Source: Loktanella salsilacus (lineage in GTDB: Bacteria > Pseudomonadota > Alphaproteobacteria > Rhodobacterales > Rhodobacteraceae). From it: a stretch of DNA of 34,827 nucleotides. Positions 3,550 through 31,401 of the stretch are shown piece by piece. The stretch is taken from the NCBI RefSeq assembly GCF_900114485.1, contig NZ_FOTF01000030.1:1-34827 (forward strand), written 5' to 3'. Every line of letters begins with the position of its first letter. The stretch's first letter is position 1. Both the position numbers and the translations under genes were made by a program. Below the pieces are notes generated by a model. It ran no database searches and was not told the origin of the DNA. It worked only from the letters and a program-made list of their open reading frames with translations.

Positions 3550-3988
3550 GAAAGCTCCGTAAAGTGTGAATTCAATGGAGTCCGGGCGTTATTCGCTTAA
3601 ACCGCAGTTCCGCCCAGGGGGCGAGTTTCCGGATTACCGGTGCCGTTTGTCCATCGTCGTTCACTCCTCATCGGATCATTGCATAATAGAAAAAGGCATC
3701 CCAATGATCAAGCTCGTCACAGCAGCCGTTAATCTACCTTGCAGCATCGGTTGTATTGGGCTCACTGCCGACTTTCGCCGCGGTGCACACGAAATCAGCG
3801 CGAAATCGTAAGGCGAGCGGCGGCAGAGCGGACAAAGCCGCCTTAGGGTTCGCGGAGGTGCTGGCGTCTGCCTATGAGAGTGGGGCTTCGTAGTGCTCGC
3901 GTGTGAGCCTGACCTCTCATCCATGAATAAATGAGTGCCGTTGCCCGACGCGATAAACAGCGTTGCTGAAACGCTCGTCGGACTAATA
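3550..3988. other. Intergenic gap with a partial family A repeat
   Basis: No convincing gene. The stretch at 3758-3791 (GGGCTCACTGCCGACTTTCG onward) matches the left inverted end of the 124-bp repeat family A, and GCAGCAT plus related bases just before it also match the lead-in of the copy at 8960. The rest of that element (a central part and a right end) is not recognisable here. Open frames crossing this stretch on both strands look like shadows of the repeat. Confidence 0.6.
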
Positions 3989-4400: not shown

Positions 4401-5399
4401 CTACTTACTGTCGCTTTCCATCGCGACTTGGTTGAAAGCTTCTGACACCTTGGCTGCGGCCGATTGCTGTGCACTAATCTTGCGTCCGTATCGCGCTGGC
4501 ATTTCAGGCGACGTCCAACGGCCGGCGACCATGATGGATGACAGATCGCACCCAATTCGAAACGCGTCATGCACACCTCCGATGCGCGTGCTGTGCGCCG
4601 ATACATCCTTTCGTCCGGTGCAACGTCTTAAAATCCGTGAAATTGTGGCGGGATCAAGAGGAAGATGTTGTGCACCTTTTTGAGACTTAGTCAGGATTGG
4701 ATCGTCTGCCTTCAGCTTAGCTTCTTCAATCCAAGCAAGAACAGCCAAGGTGCCTTTTGCGGAGAGATAGGCGTAGGCACCTTCACCGTATTGATCTGTT
4801 TTTGACCGGCTGACGTAGAGCAGGCTGCTCCCATCGTCTTGCCGCAATAGGTTCTTCACTTTGAAAGCAGAAACTTCCGAAGAACGGCACCAACTGTCAG
4901 TCATAATCCAAAGCATCGCTTTGTCACGCAGCTCCAAGCGACTTGAACCCAGACGATCAATCGCATGTATCACATCCTTTTTGCCAAGAGCAGGCGCTTG
5001 ACGCTGCGTTGTGCCATACTTGCGCTTAACGCCCTTCAAAGCCAAATCGACAAGCCGATGCCGCGTTGGAGACGGCAGGAAACGAGATCGATGTAGCTCT
5101 GCAATACCCCAAAGCCTCGTTTCGATCGTGTTTGAGGCCAGTTTGCCGCCCATATCATCAACCCAAGAGGCCAAAATTTCAGGGCTAACTGGAGGCTCTG
5201 GTGAGTATCCATGATCCGCACACCATTTACCAAAAAGCCGAATAACCATGTGGTAGTTCCGCAAGGTTGCATGAGCAAATGCGTTCTCTGACCGCTGGCG
5301 ATACTCTTCTATGAGTTGATGTCGTCGCGAGGAAGGCAGTCGTGAAATTGCTGATAAGGCTTCGACGCGTTCGTTGTGGCGGTCAAACTCACGTGGCAT
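4401..5399 (-). CDS. Tyrosine-type site-specific recombinase/integrase
   Basis: A 332-residue recombinase. An N-terminal SAM-like core-binding region (about residues 25-125, with ATLRNYHMVIRLFGKWC) is followed by the catalytic domain. Active-site residues visible from the ATG at 5399 are Arg172 in WCRSSEV, Lys200 in SRSKTD, His269-x-x-Arg272 in HSTRIG, Trp302-equivalent (295) in AGRWTS and the nucleophile Tyr304 in ARYGRK. I chose 5399 because GGGAG lies about eight bases ahead; a TTG seven codons earlier lacks one. It is not an integron IntI, since the extra IntI domain is absent. Its start faces a full 124-bp inverted-repeat element beginning 108 bases away, which could be a substrate, but no attachment core could be defined. 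Confidence 0.88.
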   Translation of the reverse strand: MPREFDRHNERVEALSAISRLPSSRRHQLIEEYRQRSENAFAHATLRNYHMVIRLFGKWCADHGYSPEPPVSPEILASWVDDMGGKLASNTIETRLWGIAELHRSRFLPSPTRHRLVDLALKGVKRKYGTTQRQAPALGKKDVIHAIDRLGSSRLELRDKAMLWIMTDSWCRSSEVSAFKVKNLLRQDDGSSLLYVSRSKTDQYGEGAYAYLSAKGTLAVLAWIEEAKLKADDPILTKSQKGAQHLPLDPATISRILRRCTGRKDVSAHSTRIGGVHDAFRIGCDLSSIMVAGRWTSPEMPARYGRKISAQQSAAAKVSEAFNQVAMESDSK

Positions 5400-6152
5400 T
5401 GAATGTCTCCCAATGTTCAAGCGATTTCATGCAGTCGGCAAGTTTATTATACACACCCTTGGCCTTGCTTAATGACAACATGTCCGAATTATTACATTCA
5501 GCGAAGTGGGCTCACTGCCGAACTTCGCTGCAGATGCTCCCCGAAAAAACTGGGTCGTGTCCCTGAGCGTCTGCTTTCTTGGGACGTGCCCATTTAGCTT
5601 GCAGGCGCAGCGAATGTCGGCAAACCGCCCTTTCGAAGCAACATGTGTGCTGTGCAGTATCCAGAAGAATACGCTCGAACCAGACTTTCGCTGAGTAGAG
5701 TATGATCGGTAAATTTAGGAGCCGAGGAAGTCGGTCATGTCGAGAAGCTTGCGCAGCAACCCTGTTGGCTTCCGCTGACAACAAGTGCCGGTGTCCCGGG
5801 ACTGTTTGCTATGGATTCAAGGTGAGTCTGCAGCTTGGGTCCTTCCGGCATGGGTTTGTTATAGGGTCGGCCGTAGCGCAGAAGCGTTGGTTCGTTAATG
5901 AATCGGCAAAGCCTAAACTAATGCAGGTGGCTTTGGGTCTGAAGCGCTACTGCTGTGTTGGAATGGGATGGGGGGCAAAATTTTGAGGACTGTAGCGCTG
6001 ATAGGGTTGAGCCGCGGGAGATGTATATCTGTCCTCCTCTATTGCCGATGATCCACGGAGCACGCAAAAGGTTGGAGGAGGTCTGGGCGCACTTGTAACG
6101 ATGGACGCGTTCCTTTTCGCCTCGAAGACAGATTGATCAAGGAACGTCGCAG
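5400..6152. other. Intergenic gap holding a full family A repeat
   Basis: Contains the repeat 5508-5630. The remaining 520 bases up to the oxidoreductase start show only short open frames with poor coding character on both strands. The 6100-6152 part is probably the promoter and leader of the next gene, with AAGGAA eight bases ahead of its ATG. Confidence 0.6.
5508..5630. repeat. Repeat family A, copy 1 (123 bp, inverted ends)
   Basis: Starts GGGCTCACTGCCGAACTTCG and ends GCGAATGTCGGCAAACCGCCC. The first and last 31 bases are imperfect inverted repeats (about 23 of 31 positions pair, core TGCCGA-TTCGCTGCA-TGCA). The body is close to copy 3 at 14857-14980 (roughly 90 percent by eye), including CCCTGAGCGTCTGCTTT and GTGCCCATTTAG. 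Confidence 0.85.
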
Positions 6153-7115
6153 ATGATCGAAAGAGCAGCAATAATCGGCCTAGGGATCATGGGGCGCAGG
6201 ATGCTTGAACACATGGTGCAACACCCGAGTTATGAACCGGTTGCCCTTTGGGATCCCGATCCGGACGCCTGCCAGAAGGCGCTGGCCCTGGCGCAAGGTG
6301 CCGCGATCACCGGCTCTGCAGAGGAAGCCATCGCTTCTGCGGATATCGTATACCTTGCCTGTCCTCCGGGTCCGCGCAAAGTCTATGCGCTGGCTGCAGC
6401 CGCTGCAGGTAAGGCTGTATTTCTTGAAAAGCCGCTTGGCGTCGATATCGCTGAGAGCGAGGATCTTGTGGTGCGTCTGACCGAAAGCGGCGTTCCCGCT
6501 GCGGTGAATTTTACGCAAGCGGCCGGCGCAGCTTTGACCAGTGTGGCAACAGCCGCGCGTTTGGGTGAATTGGGCGATATTGTTGGGGCGGATATCGTCG
6601 TGACCTATCCGGCCTGGCCACGTGCATGGCAGCAAGCGGCTGACTGGCTTCGGTATCGCAATGAGGGCGGTATGACCCGGGAAGTGATTTCGCACTTTCT
6701 CTTCTTCTGCGAACGCATCCTTGGCCCGCTTACGGTCGTCTGGGCGCACCCCTCCTATCCAGCTGGGTCTACCCTGTGTGAAACCCACATGCTGGCCCGA
6801 CTTGAGACTGCTGATGGGCGGCCCGTGACCATCATGGCTAGCATCGGGGGCGCGCAACCGGATCGACAGGAACTGACAATCAAAGGATTGGTCGTCAGTC
6901 GGCGTATTACAGACTTTTACGTCGATACCGTCTCTGATGGCGGGGACTTCATCGAGACGTCAGAGCGACCAGCGGATCCGCGTGCCTCAAGTCTCAAGGC
7001 TCAGCTGGACGATTTACTTCTGTGCATCGCGGGAAAGCCAAACAGGCTTGCGTCACCAGGCGAAGCCCTCCGGGTGCAGAAGCTGGTCGAAACCATGCTG
7101 GTTGGAAAGTCCTGA
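6153..7115 (+). CDS. Gfo/Idh/MocA-family oxidoreductase
   Basis: A 320-residue dinucleotide-dependent oxidoreductase, cytosolic. The N-terminal Rossmann fold shows GLGIMG at 9-14 and an Asp closing strand two (LWDPD, residue 34), which favours NAD. The family signature EKP is at 92-94 in FLEKPLG. The C-terminal half is the alpha/beta domain that in this family binds sugar or polyol substrates; the segment GGMTREVISHFLFF contains the region of the catalytic His. Family members usually have 320-380 residues, so the gene looks complete. AAGGAA eight bases before the ATG supports the start. It is alone, with a repeat-filled gap on each side, so the substrate cannot be inferred from neighbours. 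Confidence 0.88.
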   Translation: MIERAAIIGLGIMGRRMLEHMVQHPSYEPVALWDPDPDACQKALALAQGAAITGSAEEAIASADIVYLACPPGPRKVYALAAAAAGKAVFLEKPLGVDIAESEDLVVRLTESGVPAAVNFTQAAGAALTSVATAARLGELGDIVGADIVVTYPAWPRAWQQAADWLRYRNEGGMTREVISHFLFFCERILGPLTVVWAHPSYPAGSTLCETHMLARLETADGRPVTIMASIGGAQPDRQELTIKGLVVSRRITDFYVDTVSDGGDFIETSERPADPRASSLKAQLDDLLLCIAGKPNRLASPGEALRVQKLVETMLVGKS

Positions 7116-7241
7116 GCATGTCCCAGCGGGTTGCGCCTTCCTTTTCGGTGGACTGTGCTCTGGACTAAATTAAAGCCGTTGGCAGAAGGACAGGGTGGGC
7201 AATCCGAAAAAAGAGCACTGACGCCCGTTATAATGTATTTC

Positions 7242-7391
7242 TGTTGATTTCCGGTTCGAATTGACCCAATTTTTCAATTAGCGCTGACCCGTCTGGCTTA
7301 TGAAAAGCTCATTCAACGTCGACGGAATTGATGACAGCTGATGGCTCACGACGTTTCGAAAGGCTGGGTCAAATTCTCACATAAATCAACA
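7242..7391. mobile_element. 150-bp IS21-type relic or MITE
   Basis: The two ends match in inverted orientation: the left starts TGTTGATTTC with GAATTGACCCAA at 17-28, and the right, read inward from 7391, starts TGTTGATTTA with GAATTTGACCCAG at 15-27. The match continues, weaker, into a second GACCC/GAGCC unit at about 44-49. TGTTG termini with two tandem sub-repeats are an IS21 layout, but there is no transposase inside, so this is an internally deleted copy. No target duplication is evident. It differs from both IS21 elements at the window edges. The element fills most of the gap between the oxidoreductase (ends 7115) and the response regulator (ends 7405). Confidence 0.7.
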
Positions 7392-7404
7392 GACAGAGTT
7401 GCCC

Positions 7405-8364
7405 CTATGCGCATTTGATTTGTGTCCGCTCGCGCGCACGTAGCAGGGTTTCGTCGATGCTGTCAAAATCGCCGGACGTCTTAAGAAAAACGCGGCCAAC
7501 AGATATCTCTATTGGCTTCAGGTCGCTTGCCGGATGGCGCAAGTCTATGCGCGAGAGCTCTTTCCTTACCAAAAACTCAAGCTCAGTCTGGAAATTGGAC
7601 TTTTCAGTAGCAACTTTCATGACGAGGAAGCATCCGTACCCACCATAAGTGAAGTGACATTGTTCCTGTCTCAACGCGACAGAAAGCGCTTCGCTTATGT
7701 CTGAAAGTAGGCCCAAAAATTCCTGTGGGGTCGAATTTTCGAAAAGTTGGAGAGGGTTCTGGAACTTGACCGAGGCGACCCCGCCAAGGCGGAATTGGCT
7801 GCGCTCCATCCGGTCGATGTAATTTCTGAACGCAGGCTGCTCAAGGTAGCCCGTCGTGCCTTCGAAGCTGACAGCATCCTCAAACTTTAGCCCCGATAGA
7901 ATGCCCTGGCCCTGACATGCCGAAGCGATCTGACGCACAAGCCGATCAGTGGATGTAATTTGGCGGCTCAGACGCGCTGCCGTCTCGATCCTAGCCATCA
8001 GGTCATTGAACTGAAAAGGCTTCACGATGTAATCGTTCGCACCGGCCGAAAAAGACTTCTGGATGTACTCCCGATCAGACATTGCGGTCAGCATTATGAT
8101 CGGCGTGCGCTTGTATGCCTGATCCTGTCGAAGCTCCCTGCACAACTCCATTCCGTCCATACCCGGCATTTGGATATCGATCAGAAAACATTCGTATGGA
8201 TCATTAGCTCTTTTGACCATGGCCAGCGCCTCGTGCGCGTTGTTCGCGGCCTCAAAATTTGCGAACCCCATAGCTTCGAGAGCCATCCCGAGAAGCTCAA
8301 TGATAAAAACATCATCATCTACAATCAAAATTTTCATTTCATGATCGCTTTTGCCACACTCCAT
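7405..8364 (-). CDS. Response regulator with degenerate GGDEF domain
   Basis: A 319-residue PleD-like protein. The receiver domain starts KILIVDDD (11-18), the phosphorylated Asp is D63 in LIDIQMPGMDG, with T93 and K115 (KPF) completing the pocket. After a linker with helices, the second half keeps the outline of a diguanylate cyclase: GYLEQPAFRNYI resembles the usual TGLxNRRAF segment and ISVGRV the SIG segment, but the active-site motif reads GGYGC (241-245) in place of GGDEF, so cyclase activity is unlikely. Starts at 8394 (GTG), 8364 (ATG) and 8337 (ATG) are possible; I prefer 8364 because CGGGAT lies seven bases ahead. No histidine kinase is adjacent. Confidence 0.85.
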   Translation of the reverse strand: MECGKSDHEMKILIVDDDVFIIELLGMALEAMGFANFEAANNAHEALAMVKRANDPYECFLIDIQMPGMDGMELCRELRQDQAYKRTPIIMLTAMSDREYIQKSFSAGANDYIVKPFQFNDLMARIETAARLSRQITSTDRLVRQIASACQGQGILSGLKFEDAVSFEGTTGYLEQPAFRNYIDRMERSQFRLGGVASVKFQNPLQLFENSTPQEFLGLLSDISEALSVALRQEQCHFTYGGYGCFLVMKVATEKSNFQTELEFLVRKELSRIDLRHPASDLKPIEISVGRVFLKTSGDFDSIDETLLRARERTQIKCA

Positions 8365-8559
8365 AACTTGATCCCGAAGAATATCAGTCTCCACTCAGCT
8401 GTATAATCAATGCCCTAATCGTCATGTAGGTGCCGATTATGGCCGGAGTTGGACCAAACTGACAGAACTTTAGTTGCGATGCCTAAATCTCGACCACGTG
8501 TTAAGTCCGCAAACCCAATCGCAGCGAGCTATATGTGCGGCTAGCTCTCTGATTAAACG

Positions 8560-8886
8560 TTGGAAGGGGTGGTGATGGGCTGGATTTGGCCTGAACGATT
8601 AGGTGTGAGCTGTTGTCGAACGGGACTTTCCAAAGCAAGAGCGCGGATAGGCAGGCAGAGACAACCGGATGGTGCCGAACGGAAACTTAAACTGGCACGC
8701 CGTGGCGGAAATCGCCGGGAGCACACGACCCTCACACGACTGTCTAAAACCGCTATGTTCTCTGTGCTGAACGCGGCATTTTGCGAGGAATTGATTGATC
8801 CGAATACCAATGCTGCGAAGTTTATGGACGCCCGCGCGGCTAAAGCTGATGCGTGGATTCGAGCCAACCAGCAAACGCTGGGTTAG
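8560..8886 (+). pseudogene. Unassigned open frame, possible gene relic
   Basis: A 108-residue frame whose last 50 residues (from LSKTAMFSVLNAAFC to WIRANQQTLG) look protein-like, while the first half is Arg-rich and looks like non-coding sequence. There is no good ribosome-binding site at the first ATG. I cannot assign a family. It could be the 3' end of a gene whose front part was lost when repeats moved in, or chance. Confidence 0.25.
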
Positions 8887-8959
8887 AACTGAAGAAAGAT
8901 TTGATTTTAGCTCTGCGTGCATCGCATCAATTCTACCTTTGTGCAGCATGGGGTACTTC

Positions 8960-9083
8960 GGGCTCACTGCCGACCTTCGCTGCGTATGCACACCGAAAAG
9001 TATTGTGGCGCGGCCCTGAGCGTCCGTTTTCTCTAGGTTGCCCATTTTGGTTTGCGGGTGCGGCGAACGGCGGCTTTCCGCCC
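8960..9083. repeat. Repeat family A, copy 2 (124 bp, inverted ends)
   Basis: Starts GGGCTCACTGCCGACCTTCG and ends GCGAACGGCGGCTTTCCGCCC; the two ends pair as imperfect inverted repeats. The middle shares GCCCTGAGCGTCxG and TTGCCCATTT with copies 1 and 3 but is more diverged. A family B copy follows 43 bases later. Confidence 0.8.
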
Positions 9084-9126
9084 TTCGTGGCGAATGTCAC
9101 TTCCGGCCCTTAGCTGCCGTTCATCA

Positions 9127-9240
9127 CCACCTCAAGATGCTCCGGTGCGGCCCGTCGAACCAGCCATTCAAGCATCTGGCAGCATTTTGTCGGCCAAACG
9201 TCGGTCTGCGGTCAAAGTTAGCTTTCGCGGCCGGTGCAAA
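9127..9240. repeat. Dispersed repeat family B, copy 2
   Basis: Aligns with 2591-2700: CCxCCTC-AGATG, GCGGCCCGTC, GGCAGCATTTTGTCGGCC and GTCGGTCTGCGG are shared in order. Its position just after a family A element suggests that A and B form one larger composite unit. Confidence 0.6.
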
Positions 9241-9492
9241 AACTGAATTCGGCAGGGTTGGCATCATCATAGGGGGCGGGGAAGAGACCTTAGCGGGGGT
9301 GATCTTAAATGCGGAAATCATTTGACGCATAGAGACGGTCGGTCTCGCCTATACACCTGAAATCCAACAAGATCTCAAATCAAATACCCCAGCAATCCGC
9401 TTGTCCCTCCTTGCGCTTCGGTCTTTAACGGAGCTGCAACGACACCCGCGCGGCTCCCTGTCTGCGTAGGTCAGGGCCAAAGGGATATCACA

Positions 9493-10398
9493 GTGCTTTT
9501 CTTCACCATCTGGCCCCTTTTCGCGCTGATCTGCCTTGGCTATATCCTTGTAAGACGCGGCTTTCCTGATCCCGGTTTCTGGCCCGCCGCCGAACGGATC
9601 AACTATTTCCTGCTCTTCCCCGCCCTTCTGCTCAGCAGCCTGGCCGATGCACCCGTCCGCGACCCACAGTTGCTACGTCTGGGCTGTGCGGCCGTCATAA
9701 TCATTCTTTTCGCCGCCTTGGCCTTGGCCCTGGCCCGACGCGCTTATCCCCTGCCAGCCGCCCGCTTTGGCCCATTGCTGCAAGGCACAGTGCGCTTCAA
9801 CACCTATCTGGGACTGGCCATCCTTGCGACCTTGGCCGGACCCGTGGGGATCGAACGGGCGGCGCTTTACCTTGCGATCGCAGTGCCCTTGGTCAACGTC
9901 CTGTCGATTATGGCTCTGACCGAGGCGGGGCAGGCCCGCCGCCCCCTTGCCATGCTCCGCACCATGGTGCGCAACCCGCTAATCTTGGCTTGCTTGGGGG
10001 GTATCGCGCTGGCGCTGACCGGGTGGGGCCTACCCTTTGGCACTGGGCGCTTCCTTGACCTTCTGGCGCAAGCCAGCCTGCCGCTTGGACTGCTTTGCGT
10101 AGGTGCTGCCCTGCAACCCGCTGCCTTGCGATGCGACGGTCTAACCCTGGTTGCAAGCGGTGCCCTGCGCCTCCTGCTGATGCCCCTGCTCGCCGCACTC
10201 ATCGCGCGCTCCGTCGGCCTTAGCGGGGTCGAGGCGCTCGTGCTGGTCGTATTCTCAGCCATCCCAACGGCTCCCACTTCCTATGTGTTGACCCGGCAAC
10301 TGAACGGCGATGGCACGCTGATGGCAGGTATCGTCACGTCTCAGACGATTGCCGCCATCGCCACAATTCCGCTGGTTCTGTGGGTCCTCGGCCATTGA
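9493..10398 (+). CDS. AEC-family transporter (auxin efflux carrier type)
   Basis: A 301-residue integral membrane protein with about ten hydrophobic segments and a break between two five-helix halves around residue 150. The N-terminus (FALICLGYILVRRGF) and the C-terminal region with SAIPTAPTSYVLTRQLNGD followed by TSQTIAAI are typical of the AEC / membrane transport protein family, secondary carriers of organic acids, amino acids or amines. The start is a GTG at 9493 with AAAGGG seven bases ahead. Length fits the family (about 300-320). It is co-oriented with the zinc operon but lies 590 bases upstream of it and has no shared promoter in view. Substrate unknown. Confidence 0.87.
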   Translation: MLFFTIWPLFALICLGYILVRRGFPDPGFWPAAERINYFLLFPALLLSSLADAPVRDPQLLRLGCAAVIIILFAALALALARRAYPLPAARFGPLLQGTVRFNTYLGLAILATLAGPVGIERAALYLAIAVPLVNVLSIMALTEAGQARRPLAMLRTMVRNPLILACLGGIALALTGWGLPFGTGRFLDLLAQASLPLGLLCVGAALQPAALRCDGLTLVASGALRLLLMPLLAALIARSVGLSGVEALVLVVFSAIPTAPTSYVLTRQLNGDGTLMAGIVTSQTIAAIATIPLVLWVLGH

Positions 10399-10788
10399 TA
10401 ACCACCCGATGATTCAGAACTCGCGCTGACATGCGCGCCACCACTTACAATCATGCCACCTTCGGATGCCTTGAAGCTGTGCCACCGAATGCAGCGGTTG
10501 ATGGATGACCGGTATTGGCCGTCCTCAACGAGCTGGATTTTCGCACTTACGAGATGCTGCGGGACGGCAAGTAGTAAAGGGGCGCGATCAGGACCTACGT
10601 TGCGCTCGGCCCTGATAACCGCTGAAGGGACTTCCATGCCGTTCGATGCAGACGCCACCAATGTGGCTTTAAGGTTCGCAAACGTCGATAGCTTTAAGCC
10701 AACAATGATGAGGTTCGCCAATTCGCCCAATAGTTGACATGGGACCGACAAGTTCGCGCTGAACCGAGGCATTTTGGTGAAAATGCTA

Positions 10789-10818
10789 TTGCAATCAATC
10801 AGTGGGTAGACGTATGTA
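10789..10818 (+). promoter_or_regulatory. Probable promoter of the zinc-type operon
   Basis: TTGCAA at 10789-10794 and TATGTA at 10813-10818 are spaced 18 bases apart. The -10 box lies inside the palindrome 10811-10838, so a bound repressor would block it. Inference from pattern only. Confidence 0.4.
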
Positions 10819-10838
10819 ATGTTATAACATTACATACG
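10811..10838. promoter_or_regulatory. 28-bp perfect palindrome, predicted Zur box
   Basis: Half-site CGTATGTAATGTTA followed at once by its exact complement. The inner AATGTTATAACATT matches the known Zur operator pattern (GTTATA dyads in the AATGTTATANTATAACATT style) and the downstream genes are of the zinc-regulated Zrg type. Zur is a Fur-family repressor that binds with zinc bound. A zur gene is not in the window. Confidence 0.75.
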
Positions 10839-10988
10839 CGCTGTGGTTGCCTTGGTGTCTGCTTTCATAGGGAAATAATTCCTAACCCGATTAGGAACAA
10901 TATCGAGCATAGGCCTGCTATTCACATCCCCATCAGCCGCCACAGCACACACTTGCGCGAAACGGTCAAACTTCGAAAAGGATACATC

Positions 10989-11618
10989 ATGAAAACTTTG
11001 GCAACCGTCATCTTAGCAAGCTGCATTGCCGTCCCAGCCCATGCGCAGGAGACACGGGAATTGGGCACACACGTCCACGGAGTCAGCACGCTGCAAGTCG
11101 CCGTCGAAGATGGAACACTGTCCCTCGACCTGACGTCGCCAGGTTTGGACATCGTGGGGTTCGAATACGCGGCTTCAACCGATGCCGACAAGGACGCGGT
11201 CGCCATGGCGGTCGGCCGGCTGCTGAAGCCCGACGATATCGTAACGCTGCCTGACGCCGCTGGCTGTCGACTGGCCGCCGCGAGCGCGCACTTGCACTTT
11301 GGCGATGATCACGACGAAGACCATGATGATCACGCCGCCGAGCACAACGACCACGCCGCAGAGCATGATGACCACGACGATCACGCTGATACGGAACATG
11401 CTGAAGATGCGGACCACAAAGACGAAGGTGCTAAACACAGCGCGTTTCATGCAACTTATACCTATTCGTGTGATGCGCCGGATGCGCTGACGTCGCTGTC
11501 TCTTCCGTTTTTCGACCAGTTTGCCAACGCCCAAGAGATCGAGGCTGAGTATGTCACCGCCACTGGGGCAGGCCGCACCGAAATCTCGCGCGATGTCGCG
11601 CAGCTGGACCTGAACTGA
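10989..11618 (+). CDS. zrgA: His-rich periplasmic DUF2796 / ZrgA-type protein
   Basis: A 209-residue exported protein. It opens with a signal peptide (cleavage likely after AHA, residue 19), followed by HVHG at 28-31, a motif typical of DUF2796. A central Asp/Glu/His stretch (residues 101-150) has 13 histidines, a likely metal chelator, and two cysteines (C93 and C169-region YSCDAP) flank it. DUF2796 proteins are known as ZrgA, the periplasmic part of the zinc-regulated zrgABCDE transport cluster of Vibrio; a role in zinc capture is inferred. AAAGGA lies eight bases ahead of this ATG; the frame stays open further upstream but would absorb the palindrome and has no start signal. First gene of a five-gene operon. 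Confidence 0.85.
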   Translation: MKTLATVILASCIAVPAHAQETRELGTHVHGVSTLQVAVEDGTLSLDLTSPGLDIVGFEYAASTDADKDAVAMAVGRLLKPDDIVTLPDAAGCRLAAASAHLHFGDDHDEDHDDHAAEHNDHAAEHDDHDDHADTEHAEDADHKDEGAKHSAFHATYTYSCDAPDALTSLSLPFFDQFANAQEIEAEYVTATGAGRTEISRDVAQLDLN

Positions 11619-11620
11619 CC

Positions 11621-12316
11621 GTGACTGATGCTCCCCTGTCCTTGGTTGATGTGCACTTTGCGTGGCCCGGCAAGGGGGGCTTTGCATTGTCCTGCCCCGC
11701 CTTCGTGCTGGCACCGGGCGAGCGCGTTTTACTACTTGGGTCCAGCGGGTCCGGGAAATCGACATTGCTGTCGCTCATCTGCGGAATCGCAACCCCGCAA
11801 CGCGGGCAGGTCCTCATTGCGGGAACGGATATGGGGGCGCTACGCGCGGGCGCCCGGGACCGATTTCGCGCCGCGCGGATCGGTGTCATCTTTCAGCAGT
11901 TCAACTTGCTGCCCTACGCGAGTGTAGCTGACAATATCCTGCTGCCTCTGCGGTTCGCGCCAGAACGCCGCGCGCGTGCGGCAGATGCGATAGCAGAGGC
12001 GCGCAGGCTTTGCATGGCAATCGGCCTGCCGGACAACTTGCTTTATATGCCGGCCGGAAGGCTCAGTGTGGGGCAACAGCAGCGCGTCGCCGTGGTGCGT
12101 GCCTTGATCGGGGCACCGCCGCTGATCGTCGCGGATGAGCCCACCTCCGCGCTTGATGCGGCGACGCAGGACGCATTTTTGCAATTATTGTTCGATCAAG
12201 TGGCTGATGCGGGTTCTTCCTTGCTGATGGTCAGTCATGACGAGCGGCTGGGCGCGCATTTTGATCGCGTCGTGCGGCTGGACGAAATCGTAACAACAAA
12301 AAGGGTTCCCGCATGA
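11621..12316 (+). CDS. ABC transporter ATP-binding protein, LolD/MacB type
   Basis: A 231-residue ATPase. Walker A is GSSGSGKST at 41-48, the Q-loop is FQQFNLLPY, the signature reads LSVGQQQRV (Val in place of the first Gly after Ser) and Walker B is LIVADEPTSALD, with the H-loop in SHDERLG. The sequence style is that of the LolD/MacB group that works with FtsX-fold permeases, in line with the next gene. GTG start at 11621, two bases after the preceding stop; the end overlaps the next gene by ATGA. Within the zinc-type operon it probably powers metal- or protein-handling at the inner membrane rather than classic import. Confidence 0.9.
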   Translation: MTDAPLSLVDVHFAWPGKGGFALSCPAFVLAPGERVLLLGSSGSGKSTLLSLICGIATPQRGQVLIAGTDMGALRAGARDRFRAARIGVIFQQFNLLPYASVADNILLPLRFAPERRARAADAIAEARRLCMAIGLPDNLLYMPAGRLSVGQQQRVAVVRALIGAPPLIVADEPTSALDAATQDAFLQLLFDQVADAGSSLLMVSHDERLGAHFDRVVRLDEIVTTKRVPA

Positions 12317-13563
12317 TCCTGCGCCTCGCAACCGGGTCGCTGCTTGCGCGGTCGTTAACCGTCGGTATGACCATCCTATCCATCGCCTTGTCAGTTGCGC
12401 TGTTCCTTGGCATCGAGAAGGTTCGCACAGGGGCGCGCGCCAGTTTCGCCGACACAATCTCGGGGACAGATCTGATCGTCGGCGCGCGGTCAGGATCAGT
12501 GCAACTGCTGCTTTATTCAGTGTTTCGCATCGGCAACGCCACGAACAACGTCACATGGCAAAGCTATCAGGATATCGCGGCCCGGTCAGAGGTGGACTGG
12601 ATTGTGCCGATCTCTTTGGGCGACAGTCATCGCCAATTCCGCGTCATGGGAACGTTGAATGCGTTCTTTGAGCGCTACAAATATCGCGGCGACCGGGCGC
12701 TTACATTTGCGCAGGGGCATGGACTGAATGACCTTTATGATGCCGTCATTGGGGCCGACGTGGCGCAGGCGTTGGGGTATGCTGTCGGCGATCCGATTGT
12801 TGTGTCGCATGGGCTGGCATCTTTTACCCAGCACGACGACCAACCCTTCCGCGTGGCCGGAATTGTAACCAAGACAGGCACGCCTGTTGACCGCACTGTC
12901 ATCATTAGTCTGGAAGCGATCGAGGCGATTCATGTCGATTGGCAAGGCGGTGCGCTGGCGGGCGGCCAGACAACACCGGTCGACGCGATCCGCCAAATGG
13001 ACCTGACCCCAACCGCCATCACTGCCGCGATGGTTGGCGTGTCATCGCGTTTGGACATCTTTGGCTTACAGCGCTGGATCAATGAATACCCACAGGAGCC
13101 TTTGTTGGCAGTCCTTCCCGGTGTCGCATTGCAAGAGCTGTGGCAGATTGTCGGGGTTGCTGAAACCGCACTGGTCGCCGTGTCCGGCATGGTCGTGGTG
13201 ACGGCGCTTTTGGGAATGATGGCGATGATATTTTCCAGCCTGAACGAACGCCGCCGCGAAATGGCGATCTGGCGGGCGATGGGGGCCAGCCCCGCCACGA
13301 TCTTGGGTCTGATGGTGCTTGAGGCTGCCCTGATGGCGGCGATAGGTGCGGCTTTGGGCTTTGCGCTGCTTTACGCGGGACTATGGATTGCGCAGCCGAT
13401 GGTCGACGCGGCCTTTGGCCTTTGGTTGCCCATCGATGAGCCAAGCGGGCGAGAGTTTGCCGTTCTTGCTGCCGTCGTGCTGGCAGCTGCGGTTGCCAGC
13501 CTTGTGCCAGCGTTGCGGGCCTATAGGTTGTCGTTGGCCGACGGTATGATAGTAAGGATATAA
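12313..13563 (+). CDS. ABC transporter permease, FtsX/MacB fold
   Basis: A 416-residue inner-membrane protein. One membrane helix near residues 12-35 is followed by a large periplasmic domain (about 40-275) and three C-terminal helices (about 285-315, 335-365, 378-402), the layout of FtsX-type permeases. The RRREMAIWRAMGASPATI loop between helices two and three is the conserved coupling region of this family. The start overlaps the ATPase stop by four bases, so they are translationally coupled. These permeases often act as mechanotransmitters rather than channels, so the pair may drive release or loading of a periplasmic or lipoprotein partner in the zinc system. Confidence 0.9.
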   Translation: MILRLATGSLLARSLTVGMTILSIALSVALFLGIEKVRTGARASFADTISGTDLIVGARSGSVQLLLYSVFRIGNATNNVTWQSYQDIAARSEVDWIVPISLGDSHRQFRVMGTLNAFFERYKYRGDRALTFAQGHGLNDLYDAVIGADVAQALGYAVGDPIVVSHGLASFTQHDDQPFRVAGIVTKTGTPVDRTVIISLEAIEAIHVDWQGGALAGGQTTPVDAIRQMDLTPTAITAAMVGVSSRLDIFGLQRWINEYPQEPLLAVLPGVALQELWQIVGVAETALVAVSGMVVVTALLGMMAMIFSSLNERRREMAIWRAMGASPATILGLMVLEAALMAAIGAALGFALLYAGLWIAQPMVDAAFGLWLPIDEPSGREFAVLAAVVLAAAVASLVPALRAYRLSLADGMIVRI

Positions 13564-13565
13564 CG

Positions 13566-14072
13566 ATGATCACAATGAACCGCCGACAGTTTGGGCTGAG
13601 CGCCACCAGTGGCCTGCTATTGCCCGCCGCTGCCCGTGCCGCATCCTACCAAGAGATAACGTGGGACGATCTTGTGCCGCCGGGTATTCCCTACGCCGAG
13701 GTGATCGGCGAAGGCGATCTGGATGAACAAACTGACACATGGCGGCCCATCTTCGATGAAAACGGCGTCAAGCTGAACGCAGCACTGGACGGACTGCAAA
13801 TCAAGATGCCCGGCTACATTACGCCACTCGAAATCACGTCGGACGGCATGACAGAATTCCTATTGGTCCCCTACCTTGGCGCCTGCATTCACGTGCCACC
13901 GCCGCCGCCCAACCAACTGGTCTTTGTGAACACACAAACGCCTTGGCCCGGCGACGACATCTGGGACGCGATCTGGATTTACGGCACATTGCAGGCGCAG
14001 CTTCAGACGACTGACCTTGCCGAAATCGGTTATGCTCTGACCGCTGACAAGATTGAGGTCTACGAATGGTAA
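13566..14072 (+). CDS. DUF3299 exported protein, Tat signal (first copy)
   Basis: A 168-residue protein with a twin-arginine signal (NRRQFGL at 5-11, then a hydrophobic stretch, cleavage likely after ARA near 25). The DUF3299 core follows, with MPGYITPLE and the strongly conserved GACIHVPPPPPNQLVF (106-120), where Cys107 and His109 are candidate metal ligands. Two bases separate it from the permease stop. DUF3299 proteins regularly accompany ZrgA-type ABC genes, which suggests a periplasmic role with the transporter; the biochemical function is not known. Export in folded form by Tat suggests a cofactor or metal is loaded in the cytoplasm. Confidence 0.85.
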   Translation: MITMNRRQFGLSATSGLLLPAAARAASYQEITWDDLVPPGIPYAEVIGEGDLDEQTDTWRPIFDENGVKLNAALDGLQIKMPGYITPLEITSDGMTEFLLVPYLGACIHVPPPPPNQLVFVNTQTPWPGDDIWDAIWIYGTLQAQLQTTDLAEIGYALTADKIEVYEW

Positions 14073-14572
14073 GCATTGGGCCAAGCCGCCGGACAATGCT
14101 GCTGGCCCTATCGGCTTTCGCGTTTGCGCGTCCAAGCTATGCCGAGACGGTCATTGATCTGGATTGGAAAGATCTGCTGCCTGAAGGCAATCTTGCAATA
14201 CCGAACGAGATGCAGAGCCTTCTGCCGCATGACGAAAGCAACATGGCGTCCCGGCAGCCGGTGTCCACAGGCAGCCGGACCGACTGGAACGGGCAGACCG
14301 TGCGCCTGTCGGGATTTGTTGTGCCACTTGACTATAGCGGCACCGGCCTGACTGCGTTCATGTTGGTGCCTTACGTCGGCGCATGCATCCATGTGCCGCC
14401 CCCGCCAGCAAATCAGCTTGTCTTTGTGACCACCGAAAAGCCCTTTGAGCAAGGCAGCATGTTCGACGCCGTGACCATCACGGGGATGCTTGGAACGGTC
14501 TCGATCGCGACGCATCTGGCAGAGGTCGGCTACGCCCTGTCCGCCGACCGGATTGCACCATACGAAGGCTAA
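14066..14572 (+). CDS. DUF3299 exported protein, Tat-like signal (second copy)
   Basis: Also 168 residues, starting inside the last codons of the first copy (7-base overlap). It has a twin-arginine signal (SRRTMLLAL, 7-15; cleavage likely after SYA at 26) and the same core: LSGFVVPLDYSG and GACIHVPPPPANQLVF (106-120), with Cys107 and His109 at identical positions. A tandem duplication that has diverged outside the core. It closes the operon. The two may act as a heterodimer or serve different partners; this is inference. Confidence 0.85.
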   Translation: MVSIGPSRRTMLLALSAFAFARPSYAETVIDLDWKDLLPEGNLAIPNEMQSLLPHDESNMASRQPVSTGSRTDWNGQTVRLSGFVVPLDYSGTGLTAFMLVPYVGACIHVPPPPANQLVFVTTEKPFEQGSMFDAVTITGMLGTVSIATHLAEVGYALSADRIAPYEG

Positions 14573-15011
14573 CGGCTGGCACCAGCGAAGATGAAGTGTC
14601 CCCCTGCTAAGCACCCATCGTCGCGCTAATCTTTTGGCGTATCCGCGAAAGAACCTGATCGCCGGAGCAATCTCCTTCTGCAGGCTTGGCTGCTACCCAG
14701 TCAGACCAAGCAGCCATGACGCGTGATCACATAGCACCTTTTGCGCATCATCATGTAGGCCACGCCAACAACGAATTTGTTGGGGGCAATCTTGTCCCTT
14801 CCCTGCTAACGGTTTCGAACAGTCGCATTTGAGCGACTTGCCGCACCCGCCTAAATGGGCTCACTGCCGAACTTCGCTGCAGATGCACCCCGAAAAAAAC
14901 TGGGTCATGGCCCTGAGCGTCTGCTTTTTGACAACGTGCCCATTTAGTTTGCAGGTGCAGCGAATGTCGGCAAACCGCCCAAACCTACGGCGTTGATCCG
15001 ATCGCGTGCAT
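14573..15011. other. Intergenic region with a family A repeat
   Basis: A short dyad GCTGG-CACCAGC follows the operon end (14575-14586) without a T-run. The stretch 14704-14790 on the minus strand reads NKFVVGVAYMMMRKRCYVIT in an open frame of about 30 codons, which resembles a decayed transposase end but cannot be assigned. The full repeat copy 14857-14980 follows, and ends 32 bases before the methyltransferase stop. Confidence 0.5.
14857..14980. repeat. Repeat family A, copy 3 (124 bp, inverted ends)
   Basis: Starts GGGCTCACTGCCGAACTTCG and ends GCGAATGTCGGCAAACCGCCC, identical at both ends to copy 1 at 5508-5630. Imperfect inverted ends of 31 bases. About a dozen differences from copy 1 across the whole length. 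Confidence 0.85.
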
Positions 15012-28480: not shown

Positions 28481-28790
28481 CATCTGGGATCGGAAGTTGA
28501 AGATGTCTTCCCGATAAACGGCACGCCGGGCTTTGGCGACAGGCCCAGTGTAGGTCCAGTTCGAACTCAAGTCTCTAAATGTTGCGCAGCACACATGCCG
28601 CGACGAAGGGCGGGAAGCCGACCTTCGCCGCAGCCGAGAAAGCGGGACTTGGTTTACAAGAAAGCGGACAACCGCTCGCTCACACGTGCGCAAATTATTT
28701 ATTTTATCAAACGCCTATCGGCACGCCTGCGTAGACGATGTGTCACGCAGGGTTGTTATACGGCAAAAGGTGGACTGGGTATCAGAAGAA
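28481..28790. other. Intergenic region with a family A repeat fragment
   Basis: Between convergent genes. The stretch 28601-28637, read on the minus strand, matches 9059-9095: GCTGCGGCGAAGGTCGGCTT then CCCGCCCTTCGT. This is the right end of the family A element in inverted orientation, with the rest missing. No gene and no clear terminator. Confidence 0.5.
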
Positions 28791-30776: not shown

Positions 30777-31401
30777 GAAAAAGTTCCGCCTAAATGCTCT
30801 TCGTTGCGACCATAGTTGATAGGGTGGTATCGTCCATCCGATTGTCGAGAATGTCTGACCCCCGCAAAGCGCATCATACAGGCGGGGTGGCCGCTTATCG
30901 GCGTGGTGTTGGTTCGAAGCGAAGTAACGCGACTACGTGATGGCTGGAGACTTTGCACACGCAGCGAATGGCGGGTTTGACGGGAAGCACTGCAGCATCC
31001 AGAACACCGATAAATGGCCGCAACGGGCCGTGAATGACGTTTTGCGCGATGGGCGGATAGTGTGCATTCGCCGCACGTGCGCGGTAAGATTGGGTGAAAG
31101 GCGGCAGCCGACATTCAAACGGTAACGAATTGGAGATCCTTTCTGCGGTGCGTAAGGCAGCTCCGAGCCCAAACCTACCGCGGCAGTGGTTCGCGCATGC
31201 AGCAAAGGGCGTCACGTCACTCGCGGCCAAAAGCTAACGTTTATCGGCCGGACTGACCCCATACCGCAATTACTTCAAAGCGACCCTTTATGCGCCATGC
31301 AGCATCGTTCGAGCAAGGATAGGCAATGCCGGACGGTGCTACGCTTAGTGGATAAGGTCGAATTTCAACTCAGCTTCGGGAATATTGCGGAATTTTTTAA
31401 T
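30777..31401. other. Intergenic region with decayed repeats
   Basis: About 625 bases without a convincing gene. Several stretches carry the core of the family A ends (ATTCGC-GC-C-TGC): TGCATTCGCCGCACGTGC near 31063-31080 and, on the minus strand, CCATTCGCTGCGTGTGC near 30957-30973. They look like old, diverged copies. The KAP gene promoter should lie just upstream of 30776. Confidence 0.45.

Follow-up and report, generated by a model that had tools for sequence, protein, structure and literature searches.

What is a 124-bp repeat with inverted ends, present in three copies within one stretch of a bacterial genome, and what might it do there? The question is raised by a sequence of 34,827 nucleotides from Loktanella salsilacus (contig NZ_FOTF01000030.1, positions 1 to 34,827), referred to here as the window. 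An initial annotation, made from the letters of the window, had offered three readings of the unit: a miniature inverted-repeat transposable element (MITE), a folded RNA or a recombination site. The last of these is the reading now favoured, at least for copy 2 (8954-9194) and for a further place at 31176-30945, and the MITE and the RNA are disfavoured. As judged from sequence comparison, the unit is quite probably the left arm of an integron-like cassette-exchange site, likely served by a tyrosine recombinase here named TR2.

A complete site of this kind would consist, in order, of a left arm, a 20-nt spacer and the CGGCCC that opens a right arm, with strands crossing in or at the edge of CGGCCC, the position given by junctions in plasmids. 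A postulated circular cassette carrying one such site would integrate into a host site, so that the left side of the host would meet the right arm of the cassette and the end of the cassette would meet the right arm of the host; a filled and an empty site of Phaeobacter inhibens (L210 and L223) display that arrangement. The likely enzyme, TR2, would be encoded at the 3' end of its own cassette, with its stop codon some 23 nt upstream of CGGCCC. A role of the left arm in such a reaction is likewise postulated.

Two-armed sites and the break at CGGCCC

The unit was modelled as R1, built from nine aligned copies that include the three of the window, and the right arm as an attachment-site (att) profile built from 27 sites in Phaeobacter, Tritonibacter and TR2-linked loci, none of them from the window; the profile sites include L207, which is from L. 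salsilacus, and L164, which is the same locus as the searched source L064. The window features assigned in this way are as follows.

5502-5635, plus strand: copy 1 of the 124-bp unit, a putative left arm without a right arm (R1, 137.2 bits)
8954-9088, plus strand: copy 2 of the unit, putative left arm of a complete site (R1, 137.4 bits)
9084-9103, plus strand: 20-nt spacer from the left-arm end (CCGCCC) to the putative crossover core; the same gap is seen in nine of the ten right arms that have an upstream M+ motif
9104-9194, plus strand: right arm opening with CGGCCC, the crossover probably lying at its 5' edge (att profile, E 5.7e-9)
14851-14985, plus strand: copy 3 of the unit, a putative left arm without a right arm (R1, 139.5 bits)
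31046-31176, minus strand: diverged left arm of a putative second site (R1 only 11.2 bits, E 0.33)
30945-31030, minus strand: right arm of the second site, its CGGCCC starting at 31030 (att profile, E 2.6e-10)
3752-3838, plus strand: related shorter unit with the 5' module in common and a different 3' half (R1, 21.1 bits, E 7e-4)

The right arm is about 90 bp long and follows the pattern CGGCCC nnnn CGGACnTTCG ... TGCTGC ... CGGnCATTCGC. Because right arms were found in the window, one of them 20 nt past the end of copy 2, the 124-bp unit appears to be a left arm at least sometimes, copy 2 having the form of a complete site and 31176-30945 that of a diverged one. Two diverged cores reported at 30957 and 31063 jointly resemble this second site; the 3' motif of its left arm has a score of 22.9 and stops 20 nt short of CGGCCC. 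Copies 1 and 3 could then be left arms that lost a right arm or never had one.

The spacing recurs beyond the window. In 33 sources, 32 right arms were found at E<=1e-4 with a model start of 8 or less, one of them (L064:12218) by construction. For ten of the 32, an M+ motif scoring over 8 bits lies in the preceding 90 nt, and the gap from the end of that motif to CGGCCC is 20 nt in nine of the ten, two of them after correction of the model start, with L053 and L147 representing one site in two near strains. The remaining 22 have other left neighbours, which is what exchange at CGGCCC would leave. Plasmids of Ruegeria and Phaeobacter carry right arms that match the one at 9104-9194 but are preceded by left sides unlike that of the window. 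Genomes G003 and G004 also have this right arm next to unrelated left sides, BLAST similarity beginning at 9104 and 9100, respectively; in G006 the BLAST match begins inside the right arm, and the left side ends, as read by eye, with CCGCCC 21 nt before the core. The proposal that the copies border separate gene blocks holds for the sites on Phaeobacter plasmids and is suggested for copy 2, whose relatives are alike only from about CGGCCC onwards; for copies 1 and 3 it is a conjecture.

Exchange of gene blocks at a fixed base was found in plasmids of genera other than that of the window. Complete plasmids, from Phaeobacter and in one case from Tritonibacter, contain identical modules whose neighbours change precisely at /CGGCCC (the slash marks the break). 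Three records, L205, L206 and L210, have in common a 99% identical block made up of an alpha/beta hydrolase gene and TR2, and differ in its surroundings; L214 holds the hydrolase part only, and the block of L219 has an IS110 element inside. The left edge of the block, /CGGCCCAAAACCGACC, has four left contexts in six records, and its right edge, ...CACTGG/CGGCCC, adjoins four different right neighbours in five. The right module beside the block in L206 and L210 was present in 16 plasmid records at >=95% identity, and in the nine in which the junction was read it has seven left contexts; the right module of L205 has three left contexts in three records. Where neighbours differ, identity drops at the break from 0.99-1.0 to <=0.49. 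Strain M631 (L222) has the LysR left context seen in L205 and L214, joined there to another right arm.

The clearest case is a pair of P. inhibens strains. Strain M634 (L223) has the empty site, in which the left context is joined to the right module at /CGGCCC, and strain M635 (L210) has the filled site, with the 1,775-bp hydrolase-TR2 block between the same flanks (left, 100 of 100 nt identical; right, 98.8% of 500 nt). The block starts with CGGCCC and is followed by CGGCCC, and only CGGCCC is repeated. The pair fits the prediction of conservative site-specific integration of a circle. A looser case is that of L211 and L212, which have the same right module without the block and type IV secretion system genes 77% identical to those of L206.

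Such junctions might also arise by homologous recombination or by insertion of an insertion sequence (IS) beside repeats, and IS copies do lie near some sites (IS630 in L147, IS110 in L219, IS3 in L209), as do small repeats inserted at element ends in L063 and L065. The right arms swapped at the break are, however, only about half identical, and homologous exchange is unlikely because an identity of about 50% is too low; many records break on the same base, and the filled and empty pair is clean, with no IS at the join. We consider this origin of the junctions very improbable.

As a separate observation, a gene annotated as a retron St85 family effector lies directly after a window-type right arm in L222 (601-1291; NZ_CP081236), and defence genes may therefore be among the cassettes.

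The unit as a dispersed repeat

The three full copies reported in the window are borne out, all on the plus strand (137-140 bits, E about 1e-35), and the remark that two of them are near-identical is a fair one, since copy 1 is 91% and copy 2 78% identical to copy 3 by BLAST. The inverted ends and conserved middle that had been described (ends GGGCTCACTGCCGACCTTCGCTGC and GCAGCGAATGTCNGCNNTCCGCCC, centre GAGCGTCYGCTTTCTT) also agree with an alignment of 20 copies, in which a motif M (GCAGCGAANGTCNGCNNTCCGCCC and its reverse) stands inverted at both ends and the centre (GAGCGTCNGCTTTCTT) is M-like; the left arm as a whole is an imperfect palindrome with three related M motifs. With up to 2 mismatches in 19 bases, M occurs in 23 of 61 genomes, 20 of 37 within the family (Rhodobacteraceae, mostly marine bacteria) and 3 of 24 outside it, against 0 of 37 and 2 of 24 for a reversed M pattern used as a control. 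At a threshold of 8, M-like sites number 0.96 per kb in the flanks of 32 copies and 0.20 per kb elsewhere in the same loci, and because of this enrichment the ends of the unit are not sharp.

Not all of the shorter resemblances are of one kind. The partial copy noted at 3758 is genuine and belongs to a different subtype (3752-3838, E 7e-4), of which about 74 bases are 94.7% identical to a stretch of a Loktanella salsilacus plasmid; the same subtype, with the 5' module in common and another 3' half, was seen at L056:8060-8160 and L065:4059-4153. The partial copy claimed at 28601 gives a weak R1 match (11.9 bits, E 0.22), and the core claimed at 2678 gives none with that model, the region 2600-2690 of the window being similar to other contigs.

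The search of the consensus beyond the window and the counting of its copies, proposed in the initial annotation, place the unit in 16 of 295 sampled family genomes, that of L. salsilacus included (R1, E<=1e-4). The L. salsilacus genome itself (76 contigs, 4.13 Mb) has seven such places at E<=1e-4 on three small contigs, in a single orientation within each contig, if weaker opposite-strand matches of the same palindromes are disregarded, and 3-6 kb apart; its contig C48 includes a 6.7-kb part with 97.7% identity to plasmid NZ_CP072995. By BLAST at E<=0.01, 7 of 61 genomes match (the source genome included), two of them outside the family and near the limit. An exact pattern run across 84,980 species genomes returned only three stretches, the pattern being too strict. 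The weak matches L009-L011 were excluded from the alignments.

Could the unit be a MITE or an ERIC-like element, perhaps an internally deleted TR2 element, that inserts as a whole? Its copies are dispersed and sporadically distributed, and they have the inverted ends of a MITE with no transposase gene inside, as had been stated, the units being 114-145 bp and too short for such a gene; moreover, the unit centre and 3' half follow TR2 in 2 of 35 TR2 loci (L177 and L178). The target duplications and empty sites sought for such an element gave no support: no duplication was found among 22 copies at end offsets of -8 to +8 and lengths of 3-9, the best result being 4 of 22 at length 3, nor was a clean empty site of the 124-bp unit found. 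Beyond the gene that neighbours the G003 copy, the four genomes compared (G003, G004, G006 and G005) all differ, G004 and G006 possibly retaining remnants of M motifs at the position of the copy, as read by eye. The unsharp ends and the further modules common to the flanks also count against insertion as a unit, which we regard as unlikely.

A transcribed RNA or terminator-like hairpin, regulatory in function and retained at gene ends, was weighed as well. A strong hairpin is predicted on either strand, as the suggestion of a fold had implied, and 28 of 34 copies lie outside mechanically called open reading frames (ORFs) of >=120 aa, the other six lying inside one; some units overlap short ORFs. 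As to the compensatory changes that would go with a fold, both sides changed in 11 of 32 pairs, slightly over the 7.1 of shuffles, and covariation is to be called weak because a control in which the structure was slid by one column reaches 10. An orientation bias relative to genes, suggested at first look, was dropped after testing (p 0.16 and 0.28), and Rfam gave no match in the window. A role as RNA is highly doubtful in our view.

Two observations in related loci concern the surroundings of the units. A small repeat with GAGTTTTTCAACAGAAT ends lies directly at the GGGC/GCCC edges of units, as if units were insertion targets (L063:9784-9958, L065:3873-4047, L065:9393-9567 and L058 near 9300), and a 4-bp NGCC duplication is suggested by eye. 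Near position 9567 of L054 (G003:C6:85566), four related genomes diverge just past the terminator of a dehydrogenase gene, a possible hot spot.

TR2 and the recombinase next to copy 1

TR2 is a tyrosine recombinase of about 210 residues that consists of the catalytic domain only, the domain over which it matches Xer recombinases. It is without an N-terminal core-binding domain: alignments to Xer-type models start no earlier than model position 106, at TR2 residues 40-44, and those to PDB chains at chain positions 110 and 159. The catalytic pattern comprises LRG.DL (32 of 34 loci), HSxRR (34 of 34), LLGH (34 of 34) and RYL (32 of 34), in which we take R, HxxR, H and Y to have their usual catalytic roles; in the TR2 protein WP_102855953.1 the tyrosine is Y193. 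TR2 was found in 132 of 394 family genomes (E<=1e-30) and in 443 plasmid records (E<=1e-15), and also outside the family at lower identity, with relatives on plasmids of Rhizobiales and Gammaproteobacteria. For comparison of loci, those that were partial, less alike or short-flanked were dropped, so that 20 of 30 were kept for leader identity, 36 of 43 for the 5' module, 35 of 44 for reversed M motifs and 38 of 47 for GGCC[CT]. Among the 20 loci, whose proteins are 92% or more identical, leader identity is 0.86-0.91 whereas third codon positions reach only 0.50, which marks TR2 as an old gene with a constrained leader.

Both sides of the gene resemble parts of the site. Upstream, a 42-mer matrix for the 5' module, trained on 21 elements, matches best at a position 103-106 nt ahead of the TR2 ATG in 23 of 36 loci. 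Of the 23 matches, 17 reach >=8 bits, a score attained in 21 of the 36 loci overall against 5.7% of 2000 random windows. Downstream, GGCC[CT] lies 18-32 nt past the stop codon in 32 of 38 loci, reversed M motifs lie at +23/24 or +70/71 in 12 of 35, and a right arm at E<=1e-5 was found in 10 of the 18 TR2 loci outside the profile set. In the L. salsilacus genome both strong TR2 copies are near an element, at 1.4 and 2.5 kb; the distance is 4.4 kb in G003 and 1.8 kb in G291, each with one TR2 copy, and in G020 one of four strong matches is near an element, a fragment lying 125 bp from one.

The initial annotation had pointed to the adjoining tyrosine recombinase.

4401-5420, minus strand: tyrosine recombinase P0001, 339 aa (Pfam Phage_integrase, E 8.4e-6, 26.1 bits)

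The score of 26.1 bits falls slightly short of the curated threshold, 27.1. Between the P0001 ORF start and the beginning of copy 1, which lies on the side away from the gene, there are about 90 bp, a position that would suit a site of this enzyme; close relatives were, however, absent from 27 other unit loci by tblastn and from 32 unit loci by a two-sequence profile, and the one distant homologue in the same genome sits on contig C18, on which no unit copy was found. P0001 is probably not the partner, and that the units are its sites seems to us extremely improbable. Weak cross-matches of the two-sequence profile had pointed to another recombinase, TR2.

Several results weigh against the proposed two-armed site and against TR2 as its enzyme. 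Of 35 elements, only 8 are followed by a right arm, which in two cases has E 0.3-0.6 and in one stands at a different distance; downstream of copies 1 and 3 the profile finds none. The plasmid junctions that were read are right arms at gene ends or at the TR2 terminator, none with a canonical 124-bp left arm, so that the case for the unit depends on the constant distance between it and right arms. Searched with R1, 41 TR2 loci yield no whole element (best E 0.05). In the upstream scan with the 5'-module matrix, for which some test genomes also supplied training elements, the score exceeds that of every one of 100 shuffles in only 15 of 36 loci, and six of the 23 best matches at 103-106 nt score below 8 bits. 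No element lies near three of the four strong TR2 matches in G020 or near those in G086, G172 and G289, and both strong copies in the L. salsilacus genome are incomplete in the assembly. Elements and TR2 do not simply co-occur, since the samples give 16 of 295 genomes for the former and 132 of 394 for the latter. The activity of TR2, still the likely enzyme, is a presumed one.

Whether the system is general is a broader question. That TR2 rides its own cassette and spreads itself across the Rhodobacteraceae, reshuffling modules of plasmids and chromosomes at /CGGCCC, with full sites that carry the 124-bp left arm, is a proposal that we hold to be evenly balanced between right and wrong. If true, it would represent a line of gene-cassette exchange distinct from that of integrons, with the M repeats scattered through these genomes as its active and dead sites.

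Relation to known systems and other features of the window

No account of the site, or of TR2 together with it, was found in the open literature, subscription papers being mostly uncovered and priority thus unproven. The system is integron-like in its working but departs from integrons in two defining respects, the integrase and the crossover motif. Integrons combine an integrase (IntI), a platform site (attI) and gene cassettes with attC sites, the crossover in attC lying at GTTRRRY. The two are alike in having a tyrosine recombinase, gene blocks exchanged at one defined base, an inverted-repeat site and modules that are recombined. Here, however, the crossover lies at CGGCCC, the recombinase travels on the cassette and no fixed platform was seen; on the integron-integrase model TIGR02249, TR2 scores 23.3 bits against a cutoff of 265, and P0001 has no listed match. 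Xer/pdif modules resemble the system in that short sites border exchangeable gene modules, but the site here is longer and of other sequence, and TR2 falls far under the XerC and XerD cutoffs.

By the tests made, the system is also distinct from repetitive extragenic palindromes (REPs) with their REP-associated tyrosine transposases (RAYTs), from recombinase-in-trio (RIT) elements and from a plain MITE. The families ERIC, Bru-RS and RIME are likewise imperfect palindromes of about 100-130 bp, but in the present case some copies are followed by a crossover core and right arm; these families are set apart by description, not by sequence. ERIC has a length of 127 (PMC2267715), and Bru-RS is described as a hot spot of IS711 (PMC2266754). 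REPs, bacterial interspersed mosaic elements (BIMEs) and REPINs with RAYTs are similar as mosaic extragenic repeats of alternating orientation, and REPs are IS targets according to PMC1525189, but the candidate partner here is a tyrosine recombinase; of 16 genomes, two that have elements, G086 and G172, contain a Y1 transposase (PF01797), which was found neither in the L. salsilacus genome nor in G020, and RAYT as a partner is unsupported. Alphaproteobacterial CGTC-type REPs, which PMC3733652 describes as hairpins with 8-9 bp stems, are unlike M. RIT elements have simple tyrosine recombinases and inverted or palindromic ends, as PMC3414803 states, and are alike in both; they differ in their three overlapping recombinase genes, against one here, and in the unrelated gene neighbours seen here. 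Three adjacent tyrosine recombinases were not found in six annotated plasmid loci, each of which has one such gene.

Roseobacter-group bacteria are abundant marine microbes with many plasmids, and a precise, widespread exchange site with a candidate recombinase would explain module swaps between their replicons. It would amount to gene-cassette movement by a tyrosine recombinase of the catalytic domain only, without an integron integrase, and would open a class of intergenic repeats that lacks an explanation to direct testing.

The window holds further repeats and operons. A second dispersed repeat of 150 bp with TGTTGA...TCAACA ends lies at 7242-7391 and resembles what we take to be an IS21-type MITE; it has nine further places in the same genome (79-91% identity) and occurs in G008 (80%) and G001 (68%). 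An IS21-type istB and istA-like pair at 92-2487 is enclosed by 49-base inverted repeats at 2-50 and 2542-2590 that are 82% complementary. Two tandem DUF3299 genes (13566-14572) close an operon for ZrgA and an ABC transporter; the same operon in G069 has a chain of M-like motifs after it.

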